Positions 11,259-33,718 of a DNA stretch of 64,000 nt are shown here, piece after piece (position 1 is the stretch's first letter; each line of letters begins with the position of its first letter). Source of the stretch: Paenarthrobacter sp. A20 (GTDB lineage: Bacteria; Actinomycetota; Actinomycetes; Actinomycetales; Micrococcaceae); assembly GCF_024168825.1 (NCBI RefSeq), contig NZ_JALJWH010000001.1, positions 4,898,001 through 4,962,000 on the forward strand, in the 5' to 3' direction. The notes below the pieces were generated by a model. The model searched no databases and was not told the DNA's origin. It saw only the letters and a list, made by a program, of their open reading frames with translations. A program made the position numbers and the translations under genes.

Positions 11259-13370
11259 ATGGACACCCCTTCCATCGAGTCCATCACCAGCCCGAACCCC
11301 CGCGGGGATTCGCCTGCACTCGGAGAAAAGGCGGCGACCGGAGCAACCCAGGCCAAGGGATCAGCCCCAGCACCTCGGACCGGACCGGCCCGGATTGCCT
11401 TGGTAGGTGTCCACGGCTTCGGAACGCATCACCTCCACAATCTGGAACGGCTCAGCGCACAGGGAGCGGTGGAACTCGTCGCCGTGGCCGACCCCAATCC
11501 CCCGTCCGCAGGAGCCCTGCCCGAAACCACCGCTGTCCACGAAAACCTGGACTCCTTGTTGGCAGGTGACCACCGCCCGGACATCATCATCGTGGCGACC
11601 CCCATCCAGACCCACGCCCCCTTGGCCCTTTCCGTGCTCGCTTCCCAGGCCGACCTCTATCTGGAGAAGCCTCCAGTGGCCTCCATGAATGACTTCCTCC
11701 GCCTCCAGGACGCCGCAAACGCAGCCGGTCGCAGTGTCCAGATTGGATTCCAGAGCCTCGGTTCCCAGGCACTTGCGGCGTTGGCGGAGCTGGCAAACGG
11801 CGGCGCCACGGAAGAGCTTCCCGGTATCGGCACCCTCAAGGGCATCTCTGCCACCGGCCGTTGGGTGCGCGACCGGGCTTACTACAAGCGCTCACGCTGG
11901 GCGGGCAAGCGCAGCCTCGATGGCGTGGACGTGGTGGATGGAGTTGCAACCAATCCCTTGGCCCATGCGATCGCGACTGCGTTGCGCATTGCCGGAGCCC
12001 GCCAAGCGGAGGACCTCGCCTTCGTGGACACGGATCTCTATCGCGCCAACGACATTGAAGCGGACGACACCTCAGTGATCCGCATGAAGACCGTGGACGG
12101 ACTGCCCATCACCTGCGCCCTCACTCTCTGCGCCACTGAATCGGTGGAACCGTACGTCACGCTGCACGGGACCGAGGGAACGGCCGTATTCCACTACACC
12201 GAAGACCGCGTCACAGTCAGCACGGAAGCTGGTGACACCACCCATGTCTTCGGGCGGGACGATCTCACCGAGAACCTGCTCCAGCACCTCACCGACGGCG
12301 TGCCCCTGCTCAGCCCGTTGGATCACAGCGGCGCCTTCATGCGCGTCGTGGAAGCCATCCGGACTGCCGAGGCACCGGCTTTGATTCCCACGGAATACGT
12401 GACGTGGGTTGGAACGGGCGATCAAGCCCATGCCGTGATCCCGCACATCGAAGACATCCTGAAACGGGCCACGCTCGCCCATGTCACGTTCTCCGAGCTC
12501 GGCCTCCCTTGGGCACGGCCAACCTCCGCTGGCACCGAGGCTCTCTTCACTCCGGGCGGTGCCGGAAGCGATGGTCCAGATGCAGTCCTCCGCAGTGGAA
12601 GCGGCCTTGATACTGCGTTGTCGCCGAGGCCTTACCTTCATCCGGTGGCCACTCCGGGCGGCGTTGTAGTGACGGATCACCTGGCGTCGGACCATGTCTG
12701 GCATCTCGGCGCGGGATTCGCGCTGCAGGATGTCAACGGCAGCAACTTTTGGGGCGGCCGTAGTTATCGACGGACCGCGGGAAAATACCTGGACTTGAAA
12801 GACCACGGCAGGATCGGGATCGCGGGAATCACTCGCGGGTCGGAACACACCAGGGCGGACCTGCACTGGCTCGGAGCAGATGGCGGCTTGCTCCTGGAGG
12901 AGTGCCGCACTTTCCGCCGTACGCTCATCAACCCGAACACGTGGCGAATGGACATCACAACGGAGCTCACCGCCGTCGTGGATGCCGCGCTGGGGAGCCC
13001 AGGGTCCCACGGTGCGGCCGGAAGCGGCTACGGCGGCTTCTTCTGGAGGCTTCCTGTCAATGCGTCGATGCGTATCTTTTCCTCCACAGCCGAGGGCGAA
13101 CCCGCCGTGCACGGCTCAGTCACCCCGTGGCTGGCATGGACTGGAGAGTTCGACGGCGGCCCTGCAACATTGGTGTTTGGCGCACCGGCCGAGTCCCCCG
13201 ACCCATGGTTCGTCAGGTGCAGCGGCTACCCGGCCGTCGGTTCGGCACTGGCCTGGGATACGGCCAAGATGCTTGCCGCGGGCGAGTCCCTCACCCGCTC
13301 CGTCACGGTGTGGATCAGTGACGGAACACTGGATATGGGGGAAATCGAAGGTTTGGTGGCCAGCCGATGA
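11259..13370 (+). CDS. Gfo/Idh/MocA oxidoreductase fused to DUF6807 (PmoA-like) domain
   Basis: 703-residue two-domain protein. N-terminal half: NAD(P)-binding Gfo/Idh/MocA fold with IALVGVHGFG (variant glycine motif), the EKP motif in DLYLEKPPVAS and a C-terminal Gfo/Idh substrate domain. From about residue 450: DUF6807 (PF14100, once named after PmoA), with PRPYLHPV, DHVWHLGAGFALQDVNGSNF, WGGRSY and YGGFFWRLP. The linker is Gly/Ser-rich. ATG at 11259 has AGAGGAG in front; an upstream GTG is less likely. The stop overlaps the GH78 start (ATGA), so the pair is translationally coupled. A full-length paralogue is encoded at 30564. The reaction is unknown; oxidation of a glycoside-bound or free sugar is likely for the first domain. 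Confidence 0.82.
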   Translation: MDTPSIESITSPNPRGDSPALGEKAATGATQAKGSAPAPRTGPARIALVGVHGFGTHHLHNLERLSAQGAVELVAVADPNPPSAGALPETTAVHENLDSLLAGDHRPDIIIVATPIQTHAPLALSVLASQADLYLEKPPVASMNDFLRLQDAANAAGRSVQIGFQSLGSQALAALAELANGGATEELPGIGTLKGISATGRWVRDRAYYKRSRWAGKRSLDGVDVVDGVATNPLAHAIATALRIAGARQAEDLAFVDTDLYRANDIEADDTSVIRMKTVDGLPITCALTLCATESVEPYVTLHGTEGTAVFHYTEDRVTVSTEAGDTTHVFGRDDLTENLLQHLTDGVPLLSPLDHSGAFMRVVEAIRTAEAPALIPTEYVTWVGTGDQAHAVIPHIEDILKRATLAHVTFSELGLPWARPTSAGTEALFTPGGAGSDGPDAVLRSGSGLDTALSPRPYLHPVATPGGVVVTDHLASDHVWHLGAGFALQDVNGSNFWGGRSYRRTAGKYLDLKDHGRIGIAGITRGSEHTRADLHWLGADGGLLLEECRTFRRTLINPNTWRMDITTELTAVVDAALGSPGSHGAAGSGYGGFFWRLPVNASMRIFSSTAEGEPAVHGSVTPWLAWTGEFDGGPATLVFGAPAESPDPWFVRCSGYPAVGSALAWDTAKMLAAGESLTRSVTVWISDGTLDMGEIEGLVASR

Positions 13371-16300
13371 GCTCCGGTGCCACACGATCACCACTGGCCG
13401 CCACGAACCTCACGGTCGGGGGCCTGACACAGTGTTTGATGGCACCGGCCGTGCCAAGGTTCGGTTGGTTGCTTGATGCAGGCCACTCCGCGAGCGCGGG
13501 GCAATCATTCCAGGCCGCCTACCGCCTCCGGGTGATGGACCGCGCGGGAACAGAAGTGTGGGATTCGGGCACGGTTGTCACGGACCAGCAGCACCACCTT
13601 CCCTACACAGGCCCGGAGCTGACCCCGGACAGCGACTACCAATGGACGGTGCAGCTTACCGACTCCACCGGCGCTGTGGGTGAACCCTGCGCTCCTGCCG
13701 CTTTCAGCACGGGTCTCTTCGAGTCCACCGCCAACAGCTGGGCTGCGGAGTGGATTCACCGCGAACCCGGCGGACGTGTGCCACTGGAACAGGTGAATGG
13801 ACTGCTGCGGGTGAGCGGCTCGCCTTATCTTCCGTGGCCAGCCCTACCCAACGGCACCACCACTATTAGTGCCCGTTTCCGCCTGCGGCTGGGTACCGCG
13901 GGAATCCTCCTTCGCAGTGAAGGCCCTGGTTCAGGTCTGTTGCTGGAGATCAAGCCGAACCGCTCTGCCCTCCTGCGTCCCGCCCCCGATTGGGAGATCG
14001 GCGCAATGTCGGCCCCGATCACTCAACCATTGGCCGAAACGCCGGCCTTTGAAGCAACAGCCTCTTCGCGCGCCGGCGCTCTGCCCGAGGACGGCTGGCA
14101 GGACCTGGTGGTCACCGACGACGGGCAGCGCATCACTGTCAGCATCGACGGTGACCTCGCCCTGGACACCGAAGTCCCCGGCAACACCTCCACGGGCATC
14201 GCATTCCATCAAGGGCCACGCAGCCAGGCGGAGTACTTGTCGGTTCGAGTCCAGGGTGGCGGGGCTACCCTCCTGGAAACTGACTTCACCACACCCGGCG
14301 CCCTCAACGGCTGGACCACCACCACTCCCCTCCGCCAGCCCGACGAGTGGACTCTCGTAAAAGCCACCTTCAACCTCAAGCGTCCCGTGGTCCGTGCCCG
14401 CCTCTACGCTGCCGCGAGCCACCACGCCGCGTTCACCATCAACGGCAGCCCGTGCCTGGAGACCACCAATTTCGGGTACCCGGGCGAGCAGTTCTACAAC
14501 GCCGCCGACGTCACTGGCACACTGCAGTCGAGCGGTACCGCCACCTTGACCGCCGTCGCCCATTGGTATGGTCCCGGCCAGGGCCGCGCCGCCAGCCGCC
14601 CCGGCCTGCTGGCCCAGATGACACTGGAGTACGACGACGGCACCCGGGACGTGTTCGGATCAGGGCCCGGGTGGCTGGTGGCCGAAGGTCCGTATCGGCA
14701 GAGCGGATACCGAAACGACGAGGGCGATCCCATCGAGCATTTCGATGCGACGGCCTGGCTGGAACCACAGCAATGGCACCCGGCAATCTCCCTCGGAACC
14801 CACCCGGTCCCCGACTTCCCACACCTGCGACCCAACGATGCGGGCGTCGCACGTCACTACACGGCCGCCGTCGACATTTTCACGGCCGACGACGGAACCC
14901 CTGTGGCGGACTTCGGCGCAGTGATTCCAGGGCGCCCCGTGGTGGACTTTCTCCGTGGGGAGCAGGGGCGGACCGTGATGCTCCGGGCAGGCTACAACCT
15001 CCGGGCCGACCGTCGCGTGGACACTGGAAAGACACCCAGCCAGAACACGGACATGTCGTTCCCCTTTACTCAGGGAGACGGTCCGCAACGCTACGAGGCG
15101 GCCGTGCACCTGGGCTTCCGCTACCTCGAAATGCCTGGCATGGAGCTCGCAGACCTCGGCGCGGTCGGCGCAACAGTGATCCATGCCGAACACCCGTCCG
15201 AAGGCACCTTCCACAGCTCCGACGACACCCTGAACAGGGTCTTCGCCCTCCTCCGGAACTCAGCGTTGTTCGGCGTGCAGGAGCAGTTCGTGGACACGCC
15301 CACCCGCGAGAAGGGCCAGTTCCTGGGCGACGCCGTGAATATCTCGTACGCCACCATGGCCCTGTTTGGTGAGCGTCACTTCACGGCCAAAGCGTTGCGC
15401 GAATTCGCGGGATCTGCCAAGCGCTACTGGCAGGATCCTGCTGAGCGTGGGCGTTACAACGCGGTCTACCCCAACGGCGACGGGAAGCGCGACATCCCGG
15501 ATTTCTCGCTCATGATGCCCGAATGGGTGGAGGACTACCACCGGCTCAGCGGGGATGGTGCGCTGGTCCGGGAGCTCCTCCCCTGCCTTCAGGACACGGC
15601 GGAGTACGTGCTCCGGCACATCCCGTCGGATGGCCCCACCGCAGGGCTGGTCACCGATCTGGGCGGCGGCGGTGGTCCCTACCTCCATGGCATCGTGGAT
15701 TGGCCGGCGCCGGGCCGCTTCGGCTACGACATGGACTGCGCGGCGCGCACCACGGTGAACGCCCAGTCGTGGTCAGTGCTCGACGCCGTCAGCCGGCTCT
15801 GCGCGTCCGCTGGCCTGGCGCCCGAGGCCGCCCGGTGCAGGGAAGCGGCGGCATCGCTGGCTGGACGGATCAACTCGCGGCTCAGGGTCGACGGCGTGAT
15901 GGTGGACGGCTTGTACGCCGACGGCCGCCCCAGCTTGAATGCTTCCCAGCACGCGACCTCTTTCCCGTTGTCGCTGGGGATCACTCCCGCTGAACACGTG
16001 GCGAAGGATGCCGAACGCATCGCCGGGATGGGGATGCGGCAGGGTCCCATGACCGTGCACCGGCTGCTCCGTGCGCTGCTCTCCCAAGGGCGGGTGGACG
16101 ATGTCCTGGATCTCCTCACTGACCCCAGCCAACCCGGGTGGGCGCGCTTGCTCGAAGCCGGAGGGTCCTTTACCTGGGAGGCCTGGGAGCTTGATGAGGG
16201 CACGGATTACAGCCAATCCCACGCGTGGTCAGCCTCCGTGGTCCGGGAGATCCTTGAGTACCTCCTCGGTGTCCGCGTCACCGCACCGGGGGCGTCCGCC

Positions 16301-16516
16301 GTCGTGATTCAGCCGCCGGTATGCCGACTGGAAGCTGCCGGGGGAAGCGTGCCCACCCAGCGCGGATTCATTGCTGTCTCCTGGCGTCGAACGGCCGCTG
16401 GCATGGAGTTGGAGTGCACCATCCCCGCTGGCGTTACTGCCCAGGTGGTCCTCCCGGAGCGGACCATCGACGTCACCCCGGGAACGTGGCATTTCACGCC
16501 GCGAGGTGACACTTAA
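13367..16516 (+). CDS. Alpha-L-rhamnosidase, GH78, intracellular
   Basis: Releases terminal alpha-L-rhamnose from oligosaccharides or glycosides by inversion. Seen in order: N-terminal Fn3-like rhamnosidase domain (WLLDAGHSASAGQSFQAAYR), an inserted concanavalin-like region at about 150-310 (FRLRLGTAGILLRSEG ... ITVSIDGDLALDTE), the rhamnosidase N domain, the (alpha/alpha)6 barrel with DTPTREKGQFLGD at 643-655 (Glu648 in the general-acid position), HAWSAS, and a C-terminal beta domain. 1049 residues is normal for GH78 with an insert. No signal peptide. Start overlaps the preceding fusion gene by four bases. The last codons run into a palindrome that also contains the stop. Confidence 0.9.
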   Translation: MSSGATRSPLAATNLTVGGLTQCLMAPAVPRFGWLLDAGHSASAGQSFQAAYRLRVMDRAGTEVWDSGTVVTDQQHHLPYTGPELTPDSDYQWTVQLTDSTGAVGEPCAPAAFSTGLFESTANSWAAEWIHREPGGRVPLEQVNGLLRVSGSPYLPWPALPNGTTTISARFRLRLGTAGILLRSEGPGSGLLLEIKPNRSALLRPAPDWEIGAMSAPITQPLAETPAFEATASSRAGALPEDGWQDLVVTDDGQRITVSIDGDLALDTEVPGNTSTGIAFHQGPRSQAEYLSVRVQGGGATLLETDFTTPGALNGWTTTTPLRQPDEWTLVKATFNLKRPVVRARLYAAASHHAAFTINGSPCLETTNFGYPGEQFYNAADVTGTLQSSGTATLTAVAHWYGPGQGRAASRPGLLAQMTLEYDDGTRDVFGSGPGWLVAEGPYRQSGYRNDEGDPIEHFDATAWLEPQQWHPAISLGTHPVPDFPHLRPNDAGVARHYTAAVDIFTADDGTPVADFGAVIPGRPVVDFLRGEQGRTVMLRAGYNLRADRRVDTGKTPSQNTDMSFPFTQGDGPQRYEAAVHLGFRYLEMPGMELADLGAVGATVIHAEHPSEGTFHSSDDTLNRVFALLRNSALFGVQEQFVDTPTREKGQFLGDAVNISYATMALFGERHFTAKALREFAGSAKRYWQDPAERGRYNAVYPNGDGKRDIPDFSLMMPEWVEDYHRLSGDGALVRELLPCLQDTAEYVLRHIPSDGPTAGLVTDLGGGGGPYLHGIVDWPAPGRFGYDMDCAARTTVNAQSWSVLDAVSRLCASAGLAPEAARCREAAASLAGRINSRLRVDGVMVDGLYADGRPSLNASQHATSFPLSLGITPAEHVAKDAERIAGMGMRQGPMTVHRLLRALLSQGRVDDVLDLLTDPSQPGWARLLEAGGSFTWEAWELDEGTDYSQSHAWSASVVREILEYLLGVRVTAPGASAVVIQPPVCRLEAAGGSVPTQRGFIAVSWRRTAAGMELECTIPAGVTAQVVLPERTIDVTPGTWHFTPRGDT

Positions 16517-16559
16517 TGCCAATGTTCCTTCTCGGAACTGTCATCAAGTGCCACCTCGC
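16501..16559. repeat. Imperfect palindrome overlapping the GH78 stop; shares 20 bp with the 40964 element
   Basis: Arms GCGAGGTGACACTTAATGCC... and its near reverse complement ending CACCTCGC pair at 23 of 26 positions around TTCTC. The GH78 stop TAA (16514-16516) lies within the left arm. GACACTTAATGCCAATGTTC is identical to the palindrome between the LacI and GntR genes. It sits between convergent genes and could act as a bidirectional terminator. Confidence 0.7.
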
Positions 16560-16574
16560 GTGCCCGATCAGGGA

Positions 16575-17867
16575 CTAGCCCAGCGCGCTCTTCGCTTCGT
16601 CCATGGCCTTCTTGGCAGCTTCTGCGGGTGACATCCGGTTGAAGTGCACTTCCAGGCCGTAACGGCCAAAGGCCTCGACGGCGGAACTGGAACCTGCCGG
16701 CGGCACGGGCACTGAGTCTCCCAGTTCGGAGGAGATTTCGTCGATGAACTTGGCAGTGGCGGCGTCCTCCGGCGTCAGCTTGGGAAGGACAGCGGCACGG
16801 ACCTCCGAGTTGCCCGGAATACCCCGGTCTGCCAAGGCAATTTCGCCGGCCTCCACATTGTTGGCGAGGAAGTCGATGAACTTCTGCACCTCAGCCGGGT
16901 GCTTGGTCCGGGAACTCGCGGACCAGAACTGGGATGACTTGTAGAACTGCTTTGCGCTGGCGGCATTGCCGTCCGTGCTCGGCGGGCGGTGGATCTCAAG
17001 CGGCTGGCCCGAGGCTTTGGTGAGGGCGCTCAGCTGGTTGGACCAGTACCAGGCAAGACCAAACCTGTTGGTGGCCAGGCCCTGCTGATCCACCGACGCT
17101 GTGGCGTCCTCGGTCATCACTGAAGCGGGAGGCACCGCCTTGGAGTCGCGGAGTTCAGCCTGGTATTCGTACCAGCCCGTGAGGTCGCCCTCGTCAAAGC
17201 CGAACTTGCCGTCGGAGGTAAACAGCGATTTGCCGTGCTGGCGGAACCATAGGTTCATGGGAGCGTCGCCGCTGACGGCACCCGAGCCATAAACACCGCT
17301 CTTGCTGCCTTCGGTGATGGAGGCAGCCGTCTTGTTGTACTCATCCCAGGTCCACGTCTTGTCATCGGGCAAGGTGACACCGCTGGCTGTGAGGAGCGAA
17401 GGGTTCGCCAAGACGACCTGGGCGTTCACGCCTGCAGTGACGGCGTACTGCTTGCCTTCAACCTTGCCGGCATCTGCCACGGCAGGATCGAACTTGCCGA
17501 GGTCCACATCCTTCAGTTCGAGGAGTGCCCCGCGTTCGGCGTACTCACCCAGGTAAGCGGCGTCCATTTGGATGATGTCCGGGGCGTCCTGCGATGCGAC
17601 CTGGGTGGCCAGCTTGTCCCAATAGCCGGACCAGTCGCCGTACTCACCTTTGACCTTGATGGTGGGATTTTCCGCTTCGAAAGCGTCAATGAGTTTTTGG
17701 GTCATCTTGTGGCGAACATCCGAACCCCACCAGCTGAAGCGAAGGGTGACGGTTCCATCGGAGGCGGCTTGCTGGGAGCCGCCTCCACAACCGGTCAACG
17801 TGATGGCGACGGCGGCTGCGGCCGCTGCTACTTTCGCGGCTAATTTTCTGCGTGCTCGAGGAGACAT
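16575..17867 (-). CDS. Orphan extracellular sugar-binding lipoprotein (CUT1 family 1)
   Basis: 430-residue ABC binding protein. Seen: Arg/Lys-rich N-terminus, hydrophobic core AAAAVAITLTGCGGG with lipobox LTGC, and the solute-binding family 1 body. It is a close relative of the protein encoded at 25573: both share RFSWWG, EYGDWSGYWDKLATQVA, DAPDIIQMD, LPDDKTWTW and FWSASSRTKHP. No permease gene accompanies it, so it may feed the permeases at 27108-28974 or another system. ATG at 17867 (after TTG at 17870) is favoured by AAGGAC spacing. A LacI-type box, GAGAAAACGCTTTCTC, lies 33 bases upstream of the start. Confidence 0.88.
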   Translation of the reverse strand: MSPRARRKLAAKVAAAAAAVAITLTGCGGGSQQAASDGTVTLRFSWWGSDVRHKMTQKLIDAFEAENPTIKVKGEYGDWSGYWDKLATQVASQDAPDIIQMDAAYLGEYAERGALLELKDVDLGKFDPAVADAGKVEGKQYAVTAGVNAQVVLANPSLLTASGVTLPDDKTWTWDEYNKTAASITEGSKSGVYGSGAVSGDAPMNLWFRQHGKSLFTSDGKFGFDEGDLTGWYEYQAELRDSKAVPPASVMTEDATASVDQQGLATNRFGLAWYWSNQLSALTKASGQPLEIHRPPSTDGNAASAKQFYKSSQFWSASSRTKHPAEVQKFIDFLANNVEAGEIALADRGIPGNSEVRAAVLPKLTPEDAATAKFIDEISSELGDSVPVPPAGSSSAVEAFGRYGLEVHFNRMSPAEAAKKAMDEAKSALG

Positions 17868-17899
17868 CAAACGTCCTTATCTGAGTCGTGCGCTACGGG

Positions 17900-17915
17900 G
17901 AGAAAACGCTTTCTC
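17900..17915. promoter_or_regulatory. LacI-type operator box upstream of the orphan binding protein
   Basis: GAGAAAACGCTTTCTC is the reverse complement of GAGAAAGCGTTTTCTC found next to the LacI gene at 39822. It lies 33 bases before the start codon at 17867, where it would block transcription or early elongation. Confidence 0.6.
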
Positions 17916-17988
17916 AGCCTAGGTGTGCGCTACATCACTCGTCAAGGGAGTTTTTGTTTGTTTGAGCTATCACTTTTAACAAAAGCGC

Positions 17989-19281
17989 TCAGACTGCCGT
18001 GCGGGTGCGCCGGGCTGAATACCTCCACAGCAGGAGCCCAATCACCACTGCAGACGCCATGCCCAACGCCCCTGTGACCACCAGCCCGGCTCGTACGCCG
18101 AAGTCCTCCGTCAGCCAGCCGGCAAGCAGCCCACCCAAAGCGTGACCGCCCAAAAGCAACGGAAAGTAGAGGGCAAGAACCCGGCCGCGTACGCTGGCAC
18201 CCGCTTCAAGCTGCACTGCGGTGGCTGCACTGGTAAGGAACACCAGCGTCATGAAGCCAACCACAATCAACATCACCACGAACCACTCCTGCGTGGGCAT
18301 CAGGGCAGCGAGCAACTGCGTCAGCCCGAAGAGTCCAGCACTGGCAACGATCCCCTTACGGCCAAACCGCTTGATCCGTGTAGCCACCAGCGCACCAGCC
18401 AGGGCGCCCAACGCACTGACCGTATTGAAGAGACCGAAACCGGCAGGACCGCTATGCCACACACCGTCCGCAAAAGCGGCGAGGACCACAGGGCCGTTCA
18501 TTCCAAATGCGCCCAGCAAGCCCGCCAGGAGCATCGTCAGCAGGAGGGGAGGTCGTGCCCGGACAAAGCGGAACCCGGCCAGGATCTGACCTTTGCGCGC
18601 CGTGGGATCAGGAGATTCGGGAGAATGGTGCAGCTCGTCGGACCTGATGGATGCAATCATCACCAGGACCGCCACGCCAAGACAGGCGTTGGCAGCGAAC
18701 GCCGCCGCTGGTCCTGCCTGGGCAATGACGACGCCGGCCAGGGCAGGTCCGGCCATGGCACCCAGTTGGCCAACGGCGCTGTTCAGGCCAATTGCTGCTG
18801 GCAGCCCGGCATCGCCCACCACCTCATTGACGAACACCTGGCGTGCCGGTCCATCAATGGCACTGGTGATCCCCAACGCGATGCAGGAGGCGTAAACCAC
18901 CCAAACGTCGCTGCCGCCCATCGCGTTCCATACAGCCAGGCCGGCGGCCAGCAATGCGGCGACGGACTGGCAGACCAGGAGGATGCGGCCCTTTGGGAAA
19001 AGGTCCACCAGAACGCCACTGATGGGGCCCACTACCAGCATGGGAAGGAACTGGAGCGCGACGGCGAGGCCCACTGCGGCCGGGCTTCCTGTCAACTGCA
19101 GCACCAGCCAATCCTGCGCCAACCGCTGCATCCACACGCCACCGCTCCCCACCAGGGACAGCGCGACGAAGACCCGGTAATTGTGGTGCCGCAGCGGGTA
19201 GTGCCAGGACTCCATGGAGCGGGCACGCGCTGCCGGAGCTTTGGTGGATTTGGGGCGCAGTGGGAACGGGCGCGGCGACAC
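17989..19281 (-). CDS. MFS transporter (MFS_3/enterobactin exporter-like)
   Basis: 430-residue major-facilitator protein, about twelve hydrophobic segments. Seen: HYPLRHHNYRVFVALSLVG at the start of TM1, WLVLQLTGSPAAVGLA, and GPISGVLVDLFPKGRILL with the conserved D-x-x-x-(R/K) loop between TM2 and TM3, typical of the MFS_3 group of drug and siderophore exporters. Start is GTG at 19281 without a strong ribosome site; a later ATG at 19215 is possible. It lies between sugar-uptake genes but is separated from them by a palindrome at 19326, so a link to glycan use is not established. Substrate unknown. Confidence 0.8.
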   Translation of the reverse strand: MSPRPFPLRPKSTKAPAARARSMESWHYPLRHHNYRVFVALSLVGSGGVWMQRLAQDWLVLQLTGSPAAVGLAVALQFLPMLVVGPISGVLVDLFPKGRILLVCQSVAALLAAGLAVWNAMGGSDVWVVYASCIALGITSAIDGPARQVFVNEVVGDAGLPAAIGLNSAVGQLGAMAGPALAGVVIAQAGPAAAFAANACLGVAVLVMIASIRSDELHHSPESPDPTARKGQILAGFRFVRARPPLLLTMLLAGLLGAFGMNGPVVLAAFADGVWHSGPAGFGLFNTVSALGALAGALVATRIKRFGRKGIVASAGLFGLTQLLAALMPTQEWFVVMLIVVGFMTLVFLTSAATAVQLEAGASVRGRVLALYFPLLLGGHALGGLLAGWLTEDFGVRAGLVVTGALGMASAVVIGLLLWRYSARRTRTAV

Positions 19282-19325
19282 GGGGCGGTCTGCTCGATTC
19301 AGCGGGTTGGGGGCGGATTCTTATG

Positions 19326-20037: not shown

Positions 20038-20062
20038 TTTTCAGTACTCTCTTCCGTGTCCG

Positions 20063-21936: not shown

Positions 21937-21985
21937 AAGATCAGTCCGTCAGTTGGGAAGGCCGGTTCAGACACAGAAGGTCTGC

Positions 21986-25499: not shown

Positions 25500-25512
25500 C
25501 ACAACACGCAAG

Positions 25513-25557: not shown

Positions 25558-25572
25558 CCCGTTGCAGAAAAG

Positions 25573-26925
25573 CTAGCTGATGGCGGATTTCATCTCATCC
25601 ACGGCTTTCTTCCCGGCTTCTTCCGGCGAGAGCCTGTTGAACATGACCTCCGACGTGTAGCGCTTGATGATTTCCTGGATGGCACCTGCACCCTTCGGCG
25701 GAGCGGCCGGGGCTTCGCCGAGCTCTTCCTTGATGGCGCCGATGAAGTCGACCACCTTGACGTCCGCCTTCGCGAGCTTCGGGGCGATTGCGTCGCGGAC
25801 CTCGGAGTTGGGGTAGACGCCGCGGTCGGCCAGCAGGATCTCTCCGGCCTTGGCGTTGTTGGTCAGGAAGTTGATGAACTTCGCTGTTTCTTCAGGGTGC
25901 TTGGTCCGCGATGATGCCGACCAGAACTGCGACGCCTTGTACCAAAGGCCGGCGTCCTCAGCCTTGCCGGTCTTGGACGGGAACCGAAGGATCTGCAGTT
26001 CGCCGCCGGAAGCCTTCTCGAGGGCGGGAAGCTGGTTGGACCACCAGAATGCCATGCCGTTCTTACCGGTCGCCAGGCCGCTCTGGTCCAGCGGTGCGGC
26101 TTCGGCTTCGACAATCTCCGATGCCGTAGGCACTGCCTTGTTCTCGCTCATCTGCTTCAGGAATTCCCAGTAGCCCTTGATGTCCGAGGGCTCGAAGCCG
26201 AGCTTTCCGTCCTGGGTGTAGAGCGACTTACCGTTCTGGCGCAGCCACACCCCGAGGGAGGCTTCGTCCGTCCCGTAGGCCGCAGCACCGTAGGTCCCCT
26301 TGGGAGACTTGGCTGTCACCTCGGCTGCAATGCGCTCGAAGTCTTCCCAGGTCCAGGTTTTGTCATCCGGAAGCGCTACGCCTGCAGCCTCGAAGACCGC
26401 CGGGTTGGCCAGGATGGTGGCGGCATTGATGCCCGCGGCAATACCCGTAAGGCCCTTCTCGCCCTTACCGGCGTTGAGTGCGGCTTCGTCGAGTTTGGAC
26501 GTGTCAATGTCGTACTTGGAAAGGTCAAGCAGGGCACCGCGGGTGGAGTATTCGGTGATGTACTTTTCGTCCATCTGGATGATGTCAGGAGCATCGTTGG
26601 CCGCAACCTGCGTGGCCAGCTTGTCCCAGTAACCGCTCCAGTCGCCGTATTCAGCCTTGACCTTGATGTTGGGGTTCTCGGCCTCGAACGCCGCGATGGC
26701 TTCCTGTGTCAGCTGCGCACGCTTGTCGCCGCCCCACCACGAAAAGCGAAGCTCGACTTTTCCGTCAGCGCTTTTCGCCTCGGATCCCCCGCCGCAGGCG
26801 GTGAGGGCGAGTACCGCGGCGGCTGTTGCTGCGATGAGGGCAGAGGCGCGGAGCCTGCGCTTGGCCTTGGGTGCTTCAGCACGGGTTGCGGGGGCGATTG
26901 CTTCACCCTTTGGATTTACCGGCAC
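25573..26925 (-). CDS. Sugar-binding lipoprotein (CUT1 family 1), system 3
   Basis: 450-residue binding protein with a long basic cytoplasmic leader (about 25 residues), hydrophobic segment LIAATAAAVLALTACGGG and lipobox LTAC. The body shares long stretches with the orphan protein at 16575 (RFSWWGGDKR, EYGDWSGYWDKLATQVA, FWSASSRTKHPEE), evidence of duplication within the cluster. GTG start at 26925 has GGAG eight bases before it. Expression is probably separate from the permeases upstream, since a strong hairpin lies between (27063-27096), and it has its own LacI-type box at 26962. Confidence 0.9.
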   Translation of the reverse strand: MPVNPKGEAIAPATRAEAPKAKRRLRASALIAATAAAVLALTACGGGSEAKSADGKVELRFSWWGGDKRAQLTQEAIAAFEAENPNIKVKAEYGDWSGYWDKLATQVAANDAPDIIQMDEKYITEYSTRGALLDLSKYDIDTSKLDEAALNAGKGEKGLTGIAAGINAATILANPAVFEAAGVALPDDKTWTWEDFERIAAEVTAKSPKGTYGAAAYGTDEASLGVWLRQNGKSLYTQDGKLGFEPSDIKGYWEFLKQMSENKAVPTASEIVEAEAAPLDQSGLATGKNGMAFWWSNQLPALEKASGGELQILRFPSKTGKAEDAGLWYKASQFWSASSRTKHPEETAKFINFLTNNAKAGEILLADRGVYPNSEVRDAIAPKLAKADVKVVDFIGAIKEELGEAPAAPPKGAGAIQEIIKRYTSEVMFNRLSPEEAGKKAVDEMKSAIS

Positions 26926-26961
26926 TGTTGTCTCCGATCTTCATTGATCCTGATGCGATGT

Positions 26962-26977
26962 GAGAAAGCGTTTTCTT
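26962..26977. promoter_or_regulatory. LacI-type operator box upstream of binding protein 3
   Basis: GAGAAAGCGTTTTCTT differs by one end base from the box at 39822-39839; it is 37 bases upstream of the GTG start at 26925. Confidence 0.6.
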
Positions 26978-26990
26978 ACTGTTGATTATG

Positions 26991-27031
26991 GTACAAGTCA
27001 CAGTCTTGTATGACAAGACGTTGACTTGTAC
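26991..27031. promoter_or_regulatory. Nested palindromes, GntR-like operator candidate
   Basis: Outer arms GTACAAGTCA / TGACTTGTAC (perfect 10-bp) enclose an inner perfect palindrome GTCTTGT-ATG-ACAAGAC at 27003-27019. The form TTGT-n-ACAA is that of GntR-family operators. It lies just upstream of the LacI box in front of binding protein 3. Confidence 0.5.
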
Positions 27032-27062
27032 TACTTGTTGGTGGCGTCCGACGGCGGCACTC

Positions 27063-27096
27063 ACCAAAAGGGGGCGGCATGCGCCCCCTTCTGGTG
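27063..27096 (-). terminator. Strong hairpin terminator after permease operon 3
   Basis: CACCAAAAGGGGGCG pairs with CGCCCCCTTCTGGTG around GCATG with one mismatch. It is 12 bases after the stop of the permease at 27108 and should reduce read-through into the binding-protein gene. Confidence 0.7.
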
Positions 27097-27107
27097 GAAC
27101 GATCGGT

Positions 27108-28037
27108 CTACTTGATGCCTGTGGTGGCGATGCCCTTGATAAGGAAGCGCTGGCCGAACAGGAAGACCAGGAATACGGGGAGCAAGGACACGATGGACAT
27201 TGCGAAGAGTGATCCCCAGCTGGTGGCGGACTGCGAGTCAACGAAGGCCCGCAAAGCCACCGGCACGGTGAACATATCCGGGTCCGTCAGGTAGATGAGG
27301 GCGCCGAAGAAGTCGTTCCAGGTCCAGATGAACGTGAAAATGGTGGTGGTGGCCAGGGCCGGGACCATCAGGGGCAGGATGACGCGAAGGAAGATCCGGG
27401 GGTGGCCGGCGCCGTCAATGCGCGCTGCCTCATCGAGGTCCTTCGGGATGCCGCGGATGAATTGGACCATGAGGAACACGAAGAACGCATCCGTGGCCAG
27501 GAGCTTGGGCACAATCAGCGGCCAGAACGTATTCACCCAGCCGATCTGCGAGAACAGGATGTACTGGGGCACGATTACCACGTGGAAGGGCAGCATGATG
27601 GTCAGCAGCATGATGCCGAAGAAGATCTTCTTGCCACTGAACTGCAGGCGGGCGAAGGCGTAGGCGGCCATGGAACAGGAGACCAGGTTGCCAACGATCG
27701 AGCCCAGGACCACGATCGCGGAGTTGATCATGTAATGCCCGAACGGGTGCGTCAGCGCGGACCAGCCGTCGGTGTAGTTGCTCATCTCCAGGTTCTCCAG
27801 CCAGAGACCCGGCTCACGGAAGATGAGGTCATTGGGGCGCAGGGAGGAAACCACCATCCACAACAGCGGGTAGATCATGACGCCGCCAACAAGGATCAGG
27901 ATGGCGTGCTTGATCAGGCCCTTGATGCGGGCGCTGCGGCTATAGGCCAGGTTTCCCCGGGATTCACGGCGGCGCGGGCTCTTACCGGACGTGGCGTCAG
28001 AGGAGGAAGCGGCGGGGAGGGTCTGGAGTTTAGTCAT
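27108..28037 (-). CDS. Sugar ABC transporter permease, MalG-like (CUT1), system 3
   Basis: 309 residues: Ser/Arg-rich cytoplasmic leader, six hydrophobic segments from AILILVGGVMIYPLLWMVVS, and EAA loop DLDEAARIDGAGHPRIFLRV. ATG at 28037 is used (MTKLQTLP); it overlaps the end of the upstream permease by eight bases, so the two are coupled. Counterpart of 20063 in system 2. Followed by a strong terminator. Confidence 0.9.
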   Translation of the reverse strand: MTKLQTLPAASSSDATSGKSPRRRESRGNLAYSRSARIKGLIKHAILILVGGVMIYPLLWMVVSSLRPNDLIFREPGLWLENLEMSNYTDGWSALTHPFGHYMINSAIVVLGSIVGNLVSCSMAAYAFARLQFSGKKIFFGIMLLTIMLPFHVVIVPQYILFSQIGWVNTFWPLIVPKLLATDAFFVFLMVQFIRGIPKDLDEAARIDGAGHPRIFLRVILPLMVPALATTTIFTFIWTWNDFFGALIYLTDPDMFTVPVALRAFVDSQSATSWGSLFAMSIVSLLPVFLVFLFGQRFLIKGIATTGIK

Positions 28038-28974
28038 CGTAGAACACCCAATACTTTGAAGCGATGAAGTTGATGGCAGTGAAGGCACCGATGATGACCA
28101 GCAGGAACCAGGCCATCGCTGAGGCGTAACCCATATCGAACTGGCCGAAGCCCTTTTGGTACAGGTACAGGGTGAAGAACATGGTGGAGTCGGACGGGCC
28201 GCCGTTGCCTCCGGAGACGATGAACGCCTGCGTGAACGACTGGAATGAACCGATGATCTGCAGCACCAGGTTGAAGAAGATGATGGGGCTCAGCATGGGG
28301 AGCGTGATCCGCCAGAACTGCTGCAGCGTGGTTGCGCCGTCCACCTTGGCTGCCTCGTAGTACATCACCGGGATCTGGCGCAGGCCGGCCAGGAAGATGA
28401 TCATGGGGCTACCAAAGGTCCAGACGTGCAGCAGGATGATGGAGCCCAGTGCGGTGTTGGGGTCAGAGATCCACCCCGGCCCTTCAATGCCCACCATCGC
28501 AAGGACCTGGTTCACCAGGCCGGTGGTACCGAAGATCTGCTTCCACAGGATGGCAACAGCAACGGAACCGCCCAACAGGGAGGGCAAGTAGAAGATGGAG
28601 CGGTAGAACGGAAGGCCGCGAAGACCCTTGTCCAGGACCAAGGCAATCACCAGAGCAACAGCCAACTGAAGCGGAACACCCACCAGGACGTAGGTGAAGG
28701 TGACGCGCAGCGAGTTGTGCAGGCGGGCATCGCCGAACATCCGGACAAAGTTGTCCAGGCCGACCCATTCCGGTGGCTGCAGGAGATTGTAGTCCGTGAA
28801 GGACAGGTACAAGGACATCAGCATGGGGCCCACGGTGATCGCAGCCAGGCCGAGCAGCCAGGGAAGAAGGAACACGTAGGCGGCCTTATTGTCGCGGCCG
28901 TTCGCTTTCTTCTCTTCTTTGGTCATGGGGCCCTTGCGGCGGGTCATCGTGGAGAGTTCGCCAATGGCGCTCAT
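28030..28974 (-). CDS. Sugar ABC transporter permease, MalF-like (CUT1), system 3
   Basis: 314 residues with a charged leader (MTRRKGPMTKEEKKANGRDN within the first 31) then AYVFLLPWLLGLAAITVGPM and the EAA loop YYEAAKVDGATTLQQFWRI. ATG at 28974 has GAGGGGGAA upstream; the open frame extends further but is not protein-like. First gene of a two-permease operon whose binding protein lies downstream beyond a terminator. The divergent partner is the hydrolase at 29350, with two LacI-type boxes in between. Confidence 0.9.
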   Translation of the reverse strand: MSAIGELSTMTRRKGPMTKEEKKANGRDNKAAYVFLLPWLLGLAAITVGPMLMSLYLSFTDYNLLQPPEWVGLDNFVRMFGDARLHNSLRVTFTYVLVGVPLQLAVALVIALVLDKGLRGLPFYRSIFYLPSLLGGSVAVAILWKQIFGTTGLVNQVLAMVGIEGPGWISDPNTALGSIILLHVWTFGSPMIIFLAGLRQIPVMYYEAAKVDGATTLQQFWRITLPMLSPIIFFNLVLQIIGSFQSFTQAFIVSGGNGGPSDSTMFFTLYLYQKGFGQFDMGYASAMAWFLLVIIGAFTAINFIASKYWVFYDD

Positions 28975-29349
28975 TGTTTCCCCCTCGCCGGAGCGCGAAC
29001 GCCTTGCGGCGTCCCCGTGTTTGTTACAGCGGCCATGTGGTCTCCTTTGGTCATCGTGGCCATCCACGGAGTTCGAGTCTGGGTGGTACTTGCCTTGCGG
29101 GGGCGCCGCCATACTTCCGGCGCTCCCCCATGGGAAGCCAGGATTCGGGTCCCGGCTTTCAGCGGCTCCGTACCAAAGTAAACGTTTTCTTGACCCATGT
29201 ACAGCCTTTTGCTAATTTTTGAGAAAGCGTTTTCTTGCGAAGCCGCCCACATCGATTTCCCCACGCTGAAGAAGCCCGGCGTGCACTTCCGCACACCACC
29301 CCGCACCGATAAGGCTGGACACAATTGTTTCCCACCGACTCCGCCTGCC
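28975..29349. promoter_or_regulatory. Divergent control region (375 bp) with two LacI-type boxes
   Basis: AAGTAAACGTTTTCTTGA at 29176-29193 and TGAGAAAGCGTTTTCTTG at 29220-29237, 44 bp apart, i.e. about four helical turns, which would allow cooperative or looped binding. They lie between permease operon 3 (minus) and the hydrolase/Gfo-Idh-DUF6807/M24 operon (plus). Apart from this and the leader of either gene I see nothing in the stretch. Confidence 0.6.
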
Positions 29350-30567
29350 ATGACCACCGCTGACATGGCAGAATCGCCCAACCGCCCCAGCGCGCTGGCC
29401 GGCTACGAAGATTGGCCCGGGTATGCGGCGCGCCATCAGCACGTGGCCGGCTCGCCTGAAGCGGGGCAACTGGCCGACACACTTGGGGTTCCTGCCGTAA
29501 CACCGGACCTTGGGTACACGGTGCACTCGGAATCGGAGCACGACGGCGTCATCACCTCGTCCCTTTCCTGGCAGTTGGGCTTCGGGCCAAGAACCTCCGC
29601 TTGGTTCGTGCGGCCGGCCGGCGCCACCGGACCACTGCCCGGCCTGCTCGCCCTGCACTGCCATGGAGGCATCAAGGCTTACGGTGCCGAGCGGCTCGTG
29701 TCCCTTCCTGCAGGCGCCGAAGACCACGACGGCGGTACCTCCACCGCTGGCGGCTTCGGCCGCCTGCCTCGCGGATTGAGTGGAAAGCTTTACGGCGGGC
29801 GGGCGCCCGCCACGTGGTTGGCACAACAGGGCTTTGCCGTTCTGGCGCACGACGCTTTCATGTGGGGCAGCCGTCGTTTTGAGCTGGATCCCCTGCCTTG
29901 GCGGACTGCCAAAGCGGTCGACGGCCAGCAGGCACTCTGGCGGGAGGCCGGCGTCGAACCCTCCGCGGCGGAACAGTACGACTCAGCGGCGGCCGCCCAC
30001 GAGGAAACCGTGGCGAAAGCTGCCACGCTGCTCGGAAGCAGTGTTGCCGGAACCGTGGCGCATGACGACCTCGCGGCACTGGGTATCCTGGCATCCCTGC
30101 CGGGAGTGGACCGGGATCGGCTCGGTTGCCTGGGCTTCTCCGGCGGAGGTGGCCGGGCTTTGGTGCTGGCCGCCCTCACTCCCCGGATCCGTTGCTACGT
30201 GGTGACCTGCATGATGACCACTTTTGAGTCGCTCCTGCCTTCCTACCTCGACGCACACTCCTGGCTGCTGCATTCCCCTGGCCTGGCCAGGCTTGGAGAC
30301 TGGCCGGACCTGGCTGTGCGCTCCAACGCCCACGTCCTGGTCCAATACGGACTGGCCGACCACCTCTTCCCCGAACAGGGCATGCGCGACGCCCATGCCC
30401 GTTTGTCGTCACGCATGCCCACCCGCTACACGGGCAGCTTCTGGCAGGAACCCCACGTTTTTACCCCGGCCATGCAGGACGAGGCCGCGGCCTTCCTCAC
30501 CGCAGCCCTGCAGCCTACACACCCCGCCAGTTCCACCGCACCTGATCCCGCTAGGACGGACTCATGA
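29350..30567 (+). CDS. Alpha/beta hydrolase (dienelactone hydrolase/acetylxylan-esterase-like)
   Basis: 405-residue cytoplasmic alpha/beta hydrolase. Seen: LALHCHGGIKAYGAERL (oxyanion region), the nucleophile elbow LGFSGGGGRAL (GxSxG), acid in YGLADHLFPEQGM and C-terminal His in WQEPHVFTPAM, an order consistent with a Ser-Asp-His triad. An insert of about 90 residues between the oxyanion strand and the elbow could form a lid. ATG at 29350 is chosen, because the operator at 29220 would otherwise lie inside the gene. Its stop overlaps the start of the Gfo/Idh-DUF6807 gene (ATGA). Acetyl or acyl ester cleavage on a sugar is likely, by context and family, but the substrate is not known. Confidence 0.75.
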   Translation: MTTADMAESPNRPSALAGYEDWPGYAARHQHVAGSPEAGQLADTLGVPAVTPDLGYTVHSESEHDGVITSSLSWQLGFGPRTSAWFVRPAGATGPLPGLLALHCHGGIKAYGAERLVSLPAGAEDHDGGTSTAGGFGRLPRGLSGKLYGGRAPATWLAQQGFAVLAHDAFMWGSRRFELDPLPWRTAKAVDGQQALWREAGVEPSAAEQYDSAAAAHEETVAKAATLLGSSVAGTVAHDDLAALGILASLPGVDRDRLGCLGFSGGGGRALVLAALTPRIRCYVVTCMMTTFESLLPSYLDAHSWLLHSPGLARLGDWPDLAVRSNAHVLVQYGLADHLFPEQGMRDAHARLSSRMPTRYTGSFWQEPHVFTPAMQDEAAAFLTAALQPTHPASSTAPDPARTDS

Positions 30568-32612
30568 CCCAGCCTTTGACCACCTCAACTGCGGATGCCC
30601 AAGCCCGGCTCCCCCGCATCGCACTGGTGGGCGTGCACGGATTCGGCGAACGGCACTTGGACAACCTTGACCGCCTGAGCGCTGCCGGCCGCGTCGAACT
30701 GGTTGCCGTGGCCGATCCCCTACCCCCGGCGGAGGGGGAACTCAGCCACGGGGTCGACGTCTTCACGTCCCTTGATGAGCTCCTCGCTGCTGGAACCGCG
30801 CCGGACGTGGTGATCGTCTCCACGCCCATCCAGACCCACGCGCCTTTGGCCCTCGCTGCCCTCAAAGCCGGCGCCAATGTGTATCTGGAAAAGCCACCAG
30901 TAGCGTCCATGGAGCAATACGAGGAAGTCATGGCAGCGGCCGCGAGCGCCGGACGACTGGTTCAAGTGGGGTTCCAGAGCCTGGGTTCCGAGGCCTTGCC
31001 CGCGATCGAAGCACTCGTGGCATCCGGCGGCATTGGTGAGGTCCGGGGCATCAGTGCCACTGGCCTGTGGCTGCGCACCAAGGGGTATTTCAAGCGCTCC
31101 CGGTGGGCCGGGAAGCGCAGCCTGAACGGAACCGACGTGGTGGACGGGGTGGCCACCAACGCCCTGGCGCACGCCGTTGCTACCGGGCTGCGGCTGGCTG
31201 GTGCCAGGACAGTAGCGGATGTCGAATCCGTAGACACCGATCTCTACCGGGCCAACGACACCGAGAGTGACGACACCTCAGTGGTGAGGGTACGGACCAC
31301 GGACGGCACAGTCCTGACCTGCGCCCTGACGCTCTGCGCACCCGTGCAGTCCGCACCGGCGGTCACCATCTACGGGACGTTGGGACAGCTCGCCCTCTCG
31401 TACACGGAGGACCGAGTGGAGATCACCACGCCCGAGGGTGTCCGGACGCAGAGTTTTGGGCGGAAGGATCTGCTGGAGAACCTGCTGGCCGCCCGCAGTG
31501 AGAAGGATCTACTCAGCCCGCTCAGTGGCGCCGGCGCCTACATCTCCGTGCTGGAGGCCATCCGCACGGCAGACTCACCCTTGCCGATCCATCCGGACTT
31601 CATCAGCTGGGAGGGCCGGGACGACGACGCCCACCCCGTGGTGCACGGCATCGAATCCTTGATCCGCCGGGCAGCCTTGGGCCAAGCCACTTTCGCGGAG
31701 CTCGGAGCACCGTGGACTGACTCCGCCGGGACCTCCCTCACCATCAACGGCACCCCGGTCGCGACACTCCAGGACGGCACCCACATCCGTGGGACCTCCT
31801 CCCCGCGCCCCTATGTCCACCCCGTGCGGACCCTTGGCGGAACGGTGGTCACCGATCACGTCCCCGAAGACCACGTGTGGCACTTGGGTGCAGGTGTGGC
31901 ACTCCAGGATGTGGATGGCATCAACTTCTGGGGCGGCCGGACTTACACCCGCGACGCCGGGGCGTACGTCTGGCGCAAGGACCACGGCCGCATCGTCACC
32001 GAATCCGCGGAGCACAGTGATGGGCATCGGCGCGAACACCTGAGCTGGCTCGGGCCCGACGGCACACCGGTGCTGCGCGAGCAGCGCGAGTGGCGCTGGG
32101 CCGCCGTCGGGAATTCAGCATGGAAACTGACCCTGGACTTCACGCTGGAGTCCGCCACCGGTCGTACCGTACTGCTGGGCAGCCCCGGTTCCAACGGGCG
32201 GCCGCAGGGCGGTTACGGCGGCTTCTTCTGGCGGCTGCCCAACGTTGGCGGCGCCACCATCTGGACTCCGGACGCGCGTGGCGAGGACGCTGTGCACGGC
32301 ACCGTGGCGCCATGGCTGGCGTGGTCGGGAACGTTCGACGCCGGAACGTCCGACGCGGCGCACGTCACGGGCGACCCCGGGCTGGGCCACCCGGCAACGC
32401 TCGTATTCCTTTCTTCGCCTCAGGCCCCGGACCCTTGGTTCGTACGGCACTCCGGTTACCCCGGCGTCGGGCTATCGCTGGCCTGGGATGCCCCGGTGTC
32501 CGCCGAGCCCGAACGCCCTGTCCACAGGTCGGTCACCGTGCTCGTCACGGATGGCTTCCTGGCAACACAAGACATTGAACTGCTCATCACTACCTTGGGG
32601 GAATCGGCATGA
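30564..32612 (+). CDS. Gfo/Idh/MocA oxidoreductase fused to DUF6807, second copy
   Basis: 682-residue paralogue of the protein encoded at 11259. Same order: Rossmann domain with IALVGVHGFGERHLDNLDRL, EKP in YLEKPPVASMEQ, shared core RSRWAGKRSL.G.DVVDGVATN, then from about residue 410 the DUF6807 domain with PRPYVHPVRTLGGTVVTDH, HVWHLGAGVALQDVDGINFW and GYGGFFWRLP. The linker is shorter than in the other copy. It is coupled by four-base overlaps to an esterase-like hydrolase upstream and an M24-fold protein downstream, so the three probably work on one substrate. Reaction unknown; the fused second domain is usually a separate protein elsewhere. Confidence 0.82.
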   Translation: MTQPLTTSTADAQARLPRIALVGVHGFGERHLDNLDRLSAAGRVELVAVADPLPPAEGELSHGVDVFTSLDELLAAGTAPDVVIVSTPIQTHAPLALAALKAGANVYLEKPPVASMEQYEEVMAAAASAGRLVQVGFQSLGSEALPAIEALVASGGIGEVRGISATGLWLRTKGYFKRSRWAGKRSLNGTDVVDGVATNALAHAVATGLRLAGARTVADVESVDTDLYRANDTESDDTSVVRVRTTDGTVLTCALTLCAPVQSAPAVTIYGTLGQLALSYTEDRVEITTPEGVRTQSFGRKDLLENLLAARSEKDLLSPLSGAGAYISVLEAIRTADSPLPIHPDFISWEGRDDDAHPVVHGIESLIRRAALGQATFAELGAPWTDSAGTSLTINGTPVATLQDGTHIRGTSSPRPYVHPVRTLGGTVVTDHVPEDHVWHLGAGVALQDVDGINFWGGRTYTRDAGAYVWRKDHGRIVTESAEHSDGHRREHLSWLGPDGTPVLREQREWRWAAVGNSAWKLTLDFTLESATGRTVLLGSPGSNGRPQGGYGGFFWRLPNVGGATIWTPDARGEDAVHGTVAPWLAWSGTFDAGTSDAAHVTGDPGLGHPATLVFLSSPQAPDPWFVRHSGYPGVGLSLAWDAPVSAEPERPVHRSVTVLVTDGFLATQDIELLITTLGESA

Positions 32613-33718
32613 CCACGCCCACTCAATCCACTCCAGCCGTGGCTGCACTCACGGCTCCCGGCAACGCAGCCGACCGCGCCGTGAAACGCCGCCGCGTGCT
32701 GGACATCCTGGACGCCGCAGGACGCGACTCGCTCCTGCTGACGTCCAACACGGCGCTTACCTGGTACCTGGACGGCAGTCGCGTCCACATCAGCCTGGCC
32801 GGCGACCCCATCGCGGCCCTCTTGGTGGACCGCTCCGGCGACCATCTGGTCACGTTCAACAACGAGGCCGGGAGGATCGCCGCCGAGGAATTGCCGGAAG
32901 GCGTCAGCCTGGACACGGTCCCATGGCACGGCCAGCTGCATGCTGCGGCCGCGGGCCTGGCGATCGACGGAGACCCACTGGTGGAGGCTGCAGTCACCTC
33001 GGAACTCCGGGCGGCCCGCCAGCAACTCCTGCCCGCCGAGGCAGCCCGGTACGCCTCACTGTCCGCCGACGCGGCGGCAGCCATGACCGATGTCCTCACA
33101 ACTGCGACACCGGAAACCACTGAGTTCCAGCTGGTTTCAGAGCTGGCCGCCAGGATCGTTGCAGCAGGTGCCGAGCCGCTGGTCCTGCTCTGCAACGGCA
33201 CGTCCCGCAGCGACTTCCGGCACCCGCTGGCCACGCACTCCCCCATCGGCAGGCGCGCCATGGCAGTTGTTTGTGCACGCAGGAACGGTTTGGTGGCCAA
33301 CGTGACCCGTTGGGTGGCGTTCGACGCCGGGACTCCCCGGGAGCTGGACGCCGAGGCCCGCATCGCAGCTGTAGAGGCCGACATCTTCCGGGCCACGGTC
33401 CCCGGCGCCAGGCTCAACGAGGTCTTCACCCAGATCCAGCAGGCCTATGCCCGGCATGGATTCGGCGACGATCAGTGGACGCTGCACCACCAGGGCGGCC
33501 CAGCAGGATATGCAGGCCGCGATCCCCGGGTCACCGCAGACGTGACGGACACCATCGTCCTCAACCAGCCCTTCACGTGGAACCCGTCCGGTCCTGCCGT
33601 GAAGATCGAGGACACGGTGCTGCTCACGGATTCCGGCCTGCGGGTCCTGACCACGGACGATCGCTGGCCGACCACCGAAGTGGACGGCCGCCGTCGTCCG
33701 CTGACGCTCCGCCCCTGA
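32609..33718 (+). CDS. M24 (pita-bread) fold protein with missing metal ligands
   Basis: 369-residue protein of the Xaa-Pro aminopeptidase/creatinase fold: N-terminal domain about 1-135, C-terminal pita-bread domain 145-355. In active M24 peptidases five ligands are Asp, Asp, His, Glu, Glu. Here the segment that should read D-x-G...(S/A)D is VVCARRNGLVANVTR (positions 220-234), so both Asp are replaced (Cys/Ala and Asn231); His294 is kept in LHHQGGPAGY; the first Glu is replaced in FTWNPSG (Asn325) and only Glu334 remains (KIEDTVLLTDSG). It is therefore unlikely to bind two metals; a creatinase-like metal-free hydrolase or a binding protein is possible. Start overlaps the preceding stop (ATGA). 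Last gene of the operon. Confidence 0.75.
   Translation: MTTPTQSTPAVAALTAPGNAADRAVKRRRVLDILDAAGRDSLLLTSNTALTWYLDGSRVHISLAGDPIAALLVDRSGDHLVTFNNEAGRIAAEELPEGVSLDTVPWHGQLHAAAAGLAIDGDPLVEAAVTSELRAARQQLLPAEAARYASLSADAAAAMTDVLTTATPETTEFQLVSELAARIVAAGAEPLVLLCNGTSRSDFRHPLATHSPIGRRAMAVVCARRNGLVANVTRWVAFDAGTPRELDAEARIAAVEADIFRATVPGARLNEVFTQIQQAYARHGFGDDQWTLHHQGGPAGYAGRDPRVTADVTDTIVLNQPFTWNPSGPAVKIEDTVLLTDSGLRVLTTDDRWPTTEVDGRRRPLTLRP

Follow-up and report, generated by a model that had tools for sequence, protein, structure and literature searches.

Gfo/Idh–DUF6807 fusion proteins as candidate two-step enzymes in a uronate-linked glycan-use cluster of Paenarthrobacter

The window analysed here, a 64,000-nucleotide stretch of the soil bacterium Paenarthrobacter sp. 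A20 (contig NZ_JALJWH010000001.1, positions 4,898,001 to 4,962,000), contains two genes, fusion 1 and fusion 2, each of which joins a Gfo/Idh/MocA dehydrogenase to a DUF6807 domain (PF14100). Pfam matches to GFO_IDH_MocA (PF01408; 9.6e-17 in fusion 1 and 6.3e-21 in fusion 2, or 62 and 76 bits with a gathering cut-off of 24) and to DUF6807 (4.2e-58 and 1.8e-64, or 197 and 218 bits with a cut-off of 27) place both domains far above the thresholds, and the two proteins are 54% identical (alignment A2). The original prediction had described both genes as full-length fusions and had named as grounds for rejection either the lack of DUF6807 in the C-terminal halves or a model with no pocket there and no EKP lysine in the dehydrogenase; DUF6807 was matched in both fusions, and the lysine is present in both window copies. 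For fusion 1, the list of open reading frames (ORFs) gives a GTG start at 11202, and this longer ORF was used in the Pfam scan, whereas the gene caller picks the same ATG as the earlier prediction. Glycan-use genes extend from 4093 to 40966, which bears out the glycan-processing setting proposed earlier. They encode an AXE1 esterase, a GDSL esterase, ATP-binding cassette (ABC) transporters with a DUF624 protein, GH78 and GH42 proteins and a major facilitator superfamily protein, and a DUF1961 protein (5164-5808; PF09224, 2.6e-84) lies beside the GDSL and AXE1 esterases.

Table 1 Features of the fusion locus and LacI-DUF6807 fusions elsewhere.
Feature	Coordinates	Strand	Basis or remark
Operator-like sites (two)	11047-11060, 11157-11170		Two mismatches each; upstream of fusion 1
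Fusion 1, Gfo/Idh/MocA dehydrogenase + DUF6807	11259..13370	+	703 amino acids from ATG
Fusion 1, Rossmann domain PF01408	11391..11750	+	Pfam
Fusion 1, DUF6807 domain PF14100	12600..13358	+	Pfam
GH78 alpha-L-rhamnosidase	13367..16516	+	Clear Pfam match; 4-base overlap with fusion 1 (13367-13370)
Operator AGAAARCGYTTTCT	17901..17914		Exact
Sugar ABC transporter solute-binding protein	25573..26925	-	Pfam
Operator AGAAARCGYTTTCT	26963..26976		Exact
ABC sugar permeases (two)	27108..29112	-	Pfam
Operator AGAAARCGYTTTCT	29222..29235		Exact; upstream of the esterase-fusion 2-M24 genes; also a one-mismatch copy at 29177-29190
Alpha/beta-hydrolase (AXE1/DLH-like esterase, weak match)	29350..30567 (longest ORF 29197-30567)	+	Start inferred from operator
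Fusion 2, Gfo/Idh/MocA dehydrogenase + DUF6807	30564..32612	+	682 amino acids; modelled
Fusion 2, Rossmann domain PF01408	30615..30974	+	Pfam; contains EKP Lys110; Asn199-x3-His203 downstream of domain
Fusion 2, DUF6807 domain PF14100	31734..32579	+	Pfam, predicted structure; galactose-mutarotase-like fold (model)
M24-fold protein	32609..33718	+	Conserved HHQGG(P/A)xGYxGRDPR-like motif
Aldehyde dehydrogenase	33832..35283	-	
Enolase-superfamily sugar-acid dehydratase/cycloisomerase-like	35264..36412	-	
5-dehydro-4-deoxyglucarate dehydratase, KdgD-type	36412..37317	-	Above subfamily cut-off PRK03620, below equivalog cut-off TIGR03249
Extended short-chain dehydrogenase/reductase (SDR), epimerase/dehydratase-like	37314..38312	-	
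Second-type Gfo/Idh/MocA dehydrogenase, unfused	38343..39755	-	
Operator AGAAARCGYTTTCT	39824..39837		Exact; between lacI and uronate operon
LacI-family regulator	39935..40966	+	
LacI-DUF6807 fusions in other genomes	L044:10338-12305, L031:1474-3396, L032/L183, L158/L184		

The EKP lysine (K110) and the catalytic histidine (H203) are kept in 48/48 aligned fusions, including both window copies, and Asp51 is kept in 44/48; by a rule that we presume to apply here, Asp51 suggests nicotinamide adenine dinucleotide (NAD) as the cofactor. The best structural and sequence matches of the Gfo half are WlbA-type dehydrogenases of uridine diphosphate N-acetylglucosamine (UDP-GlcNAc) uronate and the glucuronide-3-dehydrogenase P2B11, which share with the fusions the Gfo fold, the EKP lysine and the Asn-x3-His motif. 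The solved chains of this type (354-405 residues) differ from the fusions in having no DUF6807 part, and identity between WlbA and the fusion is 22-23%. A putative oxidation at C3 would accord with these nearest relatives of the Gfo partner.

The DUF6807 domain was modelled on its own because the whole-fusion VIA run spanned residues 13-340 only. The predicted structure is nearly all beta, with two helices only (4 and 14 residues), and is a beta-supersandwich of the galactose-mutarotase fold (aldose 1-epimerase superfamily). Its conserved residues include His, Asp, Glu and Arg, a charged-residue conservation of the kind seen in enzymes. Profile-level sequence similarity to the aldose 1-epimerase superfamily was not found: the fusions had no Pfam match to the aldose epimerase family PF01263, and hhalign gave a probability of 0.2% against an alignment of 21 aldose epimerase sequences, which a motif filter had retained from the ORFs of 30 loci. 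Comparison with PDB sequences returned matches to unrelated short stretches only (best E 0.018 and 0.78), and the viral fold library gave a single, partial match below E 0.001. Some papers and annotations still label PF14100 as methane oxygenase or PmoA. PmoA of particulate methane monooxygenase is, we assume, a membrane-embedded helical subunit, and the almost all-beta model rules out this identity.

The association of DUF6807 with Gfo dehydrogenases recurs well outside the window. Fetched loci, some of them overlapping, yielded 197 DUF6807 domains with a minimum length of about 220 residues, which were reduced to 105 at 80% identity, and Gfo was identified by a home-made profile with a threshold of 50 bits; 49 of the 105 domains are fused to Gfo, 40 have a same-strand Gfo gene within 300 bases and 16 have neither, in a collection where many loci had been picked for similarity to the window. 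A fairer sample was drawn evenly from the phylum, where 21/396 genomes carry DUF6807. Excluding the three places of the window genome and one fragment (G002), 30 of its 34 DUF6807 places were fetched, and 23 of these are fused or adjacent to Gfo (one, L171, through a weak 58-bit match) and 7 are not (one lying at the edge of a contig); another 10 Gfo matches were found across the 484 kb. A single genus contributes 16 of the 30 places; counted by genus, the pairing was seen at least once in 6/9. The third DUF6807 of the window genome (G000:C1:2243913) is a stand-alone gene that immediately follows a separate Gfo gene and is itself followed by a cupin gene. The fusion itself probably arose more than once, since the fused state needs 4 changes on a quick tree made with no bootstrap, of which well-supported branches force at least 2.

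Other arrangements were also observed, and a control search showed that Caulobacter has a PF14100 gene. LacI repressor-DUF6807 fusions occur in 4 genomes (G043, G048, G056 and G397; three family codes), followed by a Gfo gene in three and by a 6-phosphogluconate-dehydrogenase-like gene in one. A Streptomyces plasmid carries genes for a xylanase, Gfo, a PmoA family protein, a cupin and an arabinofuranosidase consecutively, and plasmid pTC2 of Paenarthrobacter aurescens TC1 (L191), which is typed as conjugative, carries a Gfo-DUF6807-cupin set accompanied by LacI genes and an ABC transporter of its own; a search for more distant plasmid relatives returned only the query's own record. The DUF6807 neighbour in Catenovulum is a ThuA-domain gene in place of Gfo, and two Micromonospora loci (L120:9351-9974 and L131:9315-9959) have, at the usual Gfo position directly before DUF6807, a gene of 207-214 amino acids with no Pfam match. 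In a related clade the fusion is preceded by three genes, which in Nesterenkonia (L089:5453-8777) encode Gfo, DUF993 and a sugar-isomerase-like TIM barrel (AP_endonuc_2); five further loci (L075, L080, L082, L096 and L098) have a similar layout as judged by gene lengths and order. The cluster is also present on contigs labelled as Sporosarcina beigongshangi (L074) and as an Acidobacteria metagenome-assembled genome (L076), with DUF6807 54% and 51% identical and some neighbours up to 84-87%, which may reflect either recent transfer or mislabelled contigs.

The LacI-type box of the original prediction corresponds to the palindrome AGAAARCGYTTTCT, which has four exact copies in the genome (5.38 Mb), all of them in this cluster and inside a span of 22 kb, and supports a single regulon. 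Exact copies precede the binding-protein genes at 16575 and 25573 and the esterase-fusion 2-M24 genes, and the fourth lies between lacI and the uronate operon. With up to two mismatches allowed, 7 sites were observed in the window against 0.2 expected, two of them before fusion 1. The operator is conserved across genera: a site with at most one mismatch occurs in 37/80 named loci, mostly at the same promoters (a count made without a shuffled control), and it lies before the fusion itself in L059, L064, L073 and L076, loci with no called esterase 5' of the fusion. Judged by these sites, the uronate operon, the transporter and fusion 2 seem to form a single response, of which fusion 1 is probably a weaker member.

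The uronate operon (aldehyde dehydrogenase, enolase-superfamily protein, KdgD, SDR and second Gfo) lies downstream of fusion 2 and faces it. Its MR_MLE and Aldedh domains have no equivalog match over the cut-off, and their substrates are putative; the enolase-superfamily gene shows a relationship to talarate/galactarate dehydratase, and the SDR at 37314 matched two UDP-glucose 4-epimerases and one putative nucleotide-sugar epimerase in the PDB at 1e-8. KdgD above the cut-off was found 2.6 to 6.9 kb from a fusion-2-type gene in 22/22 same-genus carriers, a partly position-based count in which 11 carriers were typed by sequence and 11 by eye (profile stretch and position). These are not 22 independent events because same-genus relatives inherited one cluster. 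Two genomes with fusion 1 only, typed by sequence (G012 and G022), have no KdgD above the cut-off. A strict link is opposed by four fusion-less genomes with KdgD above the cut-off (G002, G010, G019 and G028) and by a further KdgD at 1140051 in the window genome.

Neighbours were counted around 80 typed DUF6807 genes (loci L053-L132); stand-alone genes were counted too, and every gene was typed by the window copy to which it is closer. Genes nearest to the window KdgD (best BLAST hit at 1e-10 with no limit on identity) occur in 31 of the 69 fusion-2-type loci. Elsewhere, neighbours include a PcRGLX-type (PL26) rhamnogalacturonan lyase (L109), GH43, GH3 and a xylanase, and a pectate lyase/pectinesterase lies beside DUF6807 in L045, a locus with no Gfo. 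A uronic acid substrate is suggested because uronic acids are common to pectin and glucuronoxylan and because both the aldarate operon and the conserved arginines are consistent with it. GH88/105 was not found in the window genome, and GH28 gave a single marginal match (28 bits). This absence was dropped as decisive evidence, as GH88/105 is rare throughout the genus (above cut-off in 2/36 same-genus relatives, with or without DUF6807, and in 6/59 of all relatives); it is only compatible with uronide removal by the fusions. Among the genes called from 4093 to 40966, Pfam scans found no PF06439 or PF01261 eliminase/hydrolase families, and the sole PF06439 match of the genome (G000:C1:1714719) is far outside the window.

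The ORF list confirmed the predicted overlaps of the fusions, each of 4 bases, with the GH78, esterase-like (30564-30567) and M24-fold (32609-32612) genes. The latter two have weak Pfam matches (AXE1, 1.2e-6; M24, 2.6e-7). A start near 29350 instead of 29197 is probable for the esterase, since the longest ORF takes in the operator at 29222 and since, in close relatives (L053, L054 and L056-L058), the called start lies 126-127 bases after the operator. GH78 lies immediately 3' of 2/11 fusion-1-type genes and an esterase immediately 5' of 19/69 fusion-2-type genes, and with these counts the proposal that hydrolase coupling defines the module was abandoned. An M24-like gene lies immediately 3' of 34/69 fusion-2-type genes. 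The M24-fold protein beside fusion 2 is likely a metal-free member: Cys212 and Asn221 (gene-caller numbering) occupy the positions read as the first two metal ligands. Its characteristic motif (Table 1) is strongly conserved across 41 aligned sequences.

We consider that the Gfo-DUF6807 fusions may be two-step cytoplasmic enzymes for imported plant oligosaccharides bearing uronic acids, a tentative reading to which we assign a probability of roughly 0.4. The Gfo domain would oxidise a hydroxyl of the uronide ring, most likely at C3, using NAD+, and DUF6807 would act on the oxidised sugar, most likely by breaking the labile glycosidic bond or by hydrating the product. The released uronate could then pass through the co-regulated SDR, enolase-superfamily dehydratase, KdgD and aldehyde dehydrogenase to 2-oxoglutarate. 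With fusion 1, GH78 might remove rhamnose and the fusion the galacturonate thereby exposed, together unzipping rhamnogalacturonan I. Of the two steps in the original prediction, oxidation by domain 1 is supported by the dehydrogenase motif, while action of domain 2 on the keto intermediate is plausible but unproven. Oxidation followed by processing is favoured because pairs of a C3 dehydrogenase with an eliminase or hydrolase are known from the accessible parts of published work (PMC10628242, PMC9007349, PMC8873060).

The strongest competing explanation, although we judge it unlikely, is that DUF6807 works as a mutarotase and provides a Gfo C1-dehydrogenase with the correct anomer, so that free uronate would be converted to an aldarolactone for the enolase-superfamily enzyme and KdgD. 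The galactose-mutarotase fold of the model speaks for it, as do the relationship of the enolase-superfamily gene to talarate/galactarate dehydratase and the presence of an aldarate route in a cluster with no evident uronate dehydrogenase, the SDR at 37314 matching epimerases. However, neither hhalign nor Pfam found a sequence relation to aldose epimerases, the partner Gfo is closer to 3-dehydrogenases, and DUF6807 also occurs in stretches where no aldarate genes were seen. That DUF6807 is a non-catalytic sugar-sensing or carrier domain would accord with its fusion to LacI in four genomes, three with a Gfo gene next; we regard this as quite improbable, as the LacI part brings a sugar-binding domain of its own (seen in both LacI-DUF6807 proteins scanned) and the charged residues are conserved as in an enzyme. 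Finally, the Gfo domain alone might be an NAD-dependent glycoside hydrolase of a type that we take to be represented by GH109 and GH188, with DUF6807 merely holding the glycan, which also seems rather improbable.

The proposed oxidation-then-processing route resembles characterised systems in part. DgpA with the C-glycoside eliminases and the Agrobacterium OGE pathway combine C3 oxidation with beta-elimination, and like the proposed route they use a C3-oxidising dehydrogenase and a partner protein acting on the 3-keto-glycoside; as far as the accessible text describes them, these eliminases are TIM-barrel Mn2+ enzymes, whereas DUF6807 is modelled as a beta-supersandwich (PMC10628242). DUF1080, the 3-keto-disaccharide hydrolases of PF06439, was likewise a domain of unknown function beside a glycoside 3-dehydrogenase, according to the part of the report available (PMC9007349), and is a different family from DUF6807. 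The Lac161 cosmid from Verrucomicrobia has a putative operon with a PF14100 gene, an enolase-superfamily gene and two reported beta-galactosidases, and the accessible portion of that paper mentions no fusion and describes no assay of the PF14100 protein (PMC5342196). No function for DUF6807 or PF14100 was found in the accessible open-access literature, subscription papers and preprints lying outside the search; besides the Lac161 report, one text gives nothing beyond the DUF number and another lists PF14100 as PmoA. Dehydrogenase-assisted sugar breakdown is of a known kind, while the DUF6807 domain, its fold and its fusion appear undescribed in this context within the open-access texts searched.

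These findings possibly point to an undescribed route of acidic-sugar breakdown. A further-reaching proposal, which we consider doubtful, is that DUF6807 founds a mutarotase-fold family of 3-keto-uronide lyases or hydrolases and that Gfo-DUF6807 is a self-contained redox uronidase, with which Actinobacteria would free pectic and xylan oligosaccharides of uronic acids without using GH28, GH88 or GH105, the LacI-fused copies serving as a trigger enzyme in some lineages. With PF14100 linked to a single dehydrogenase type, fold and pathway, its role becomes an enzyme question that can be tested directly, and if the reading is true, a new fold would be added to oxidation-assisted glycan breakdown.
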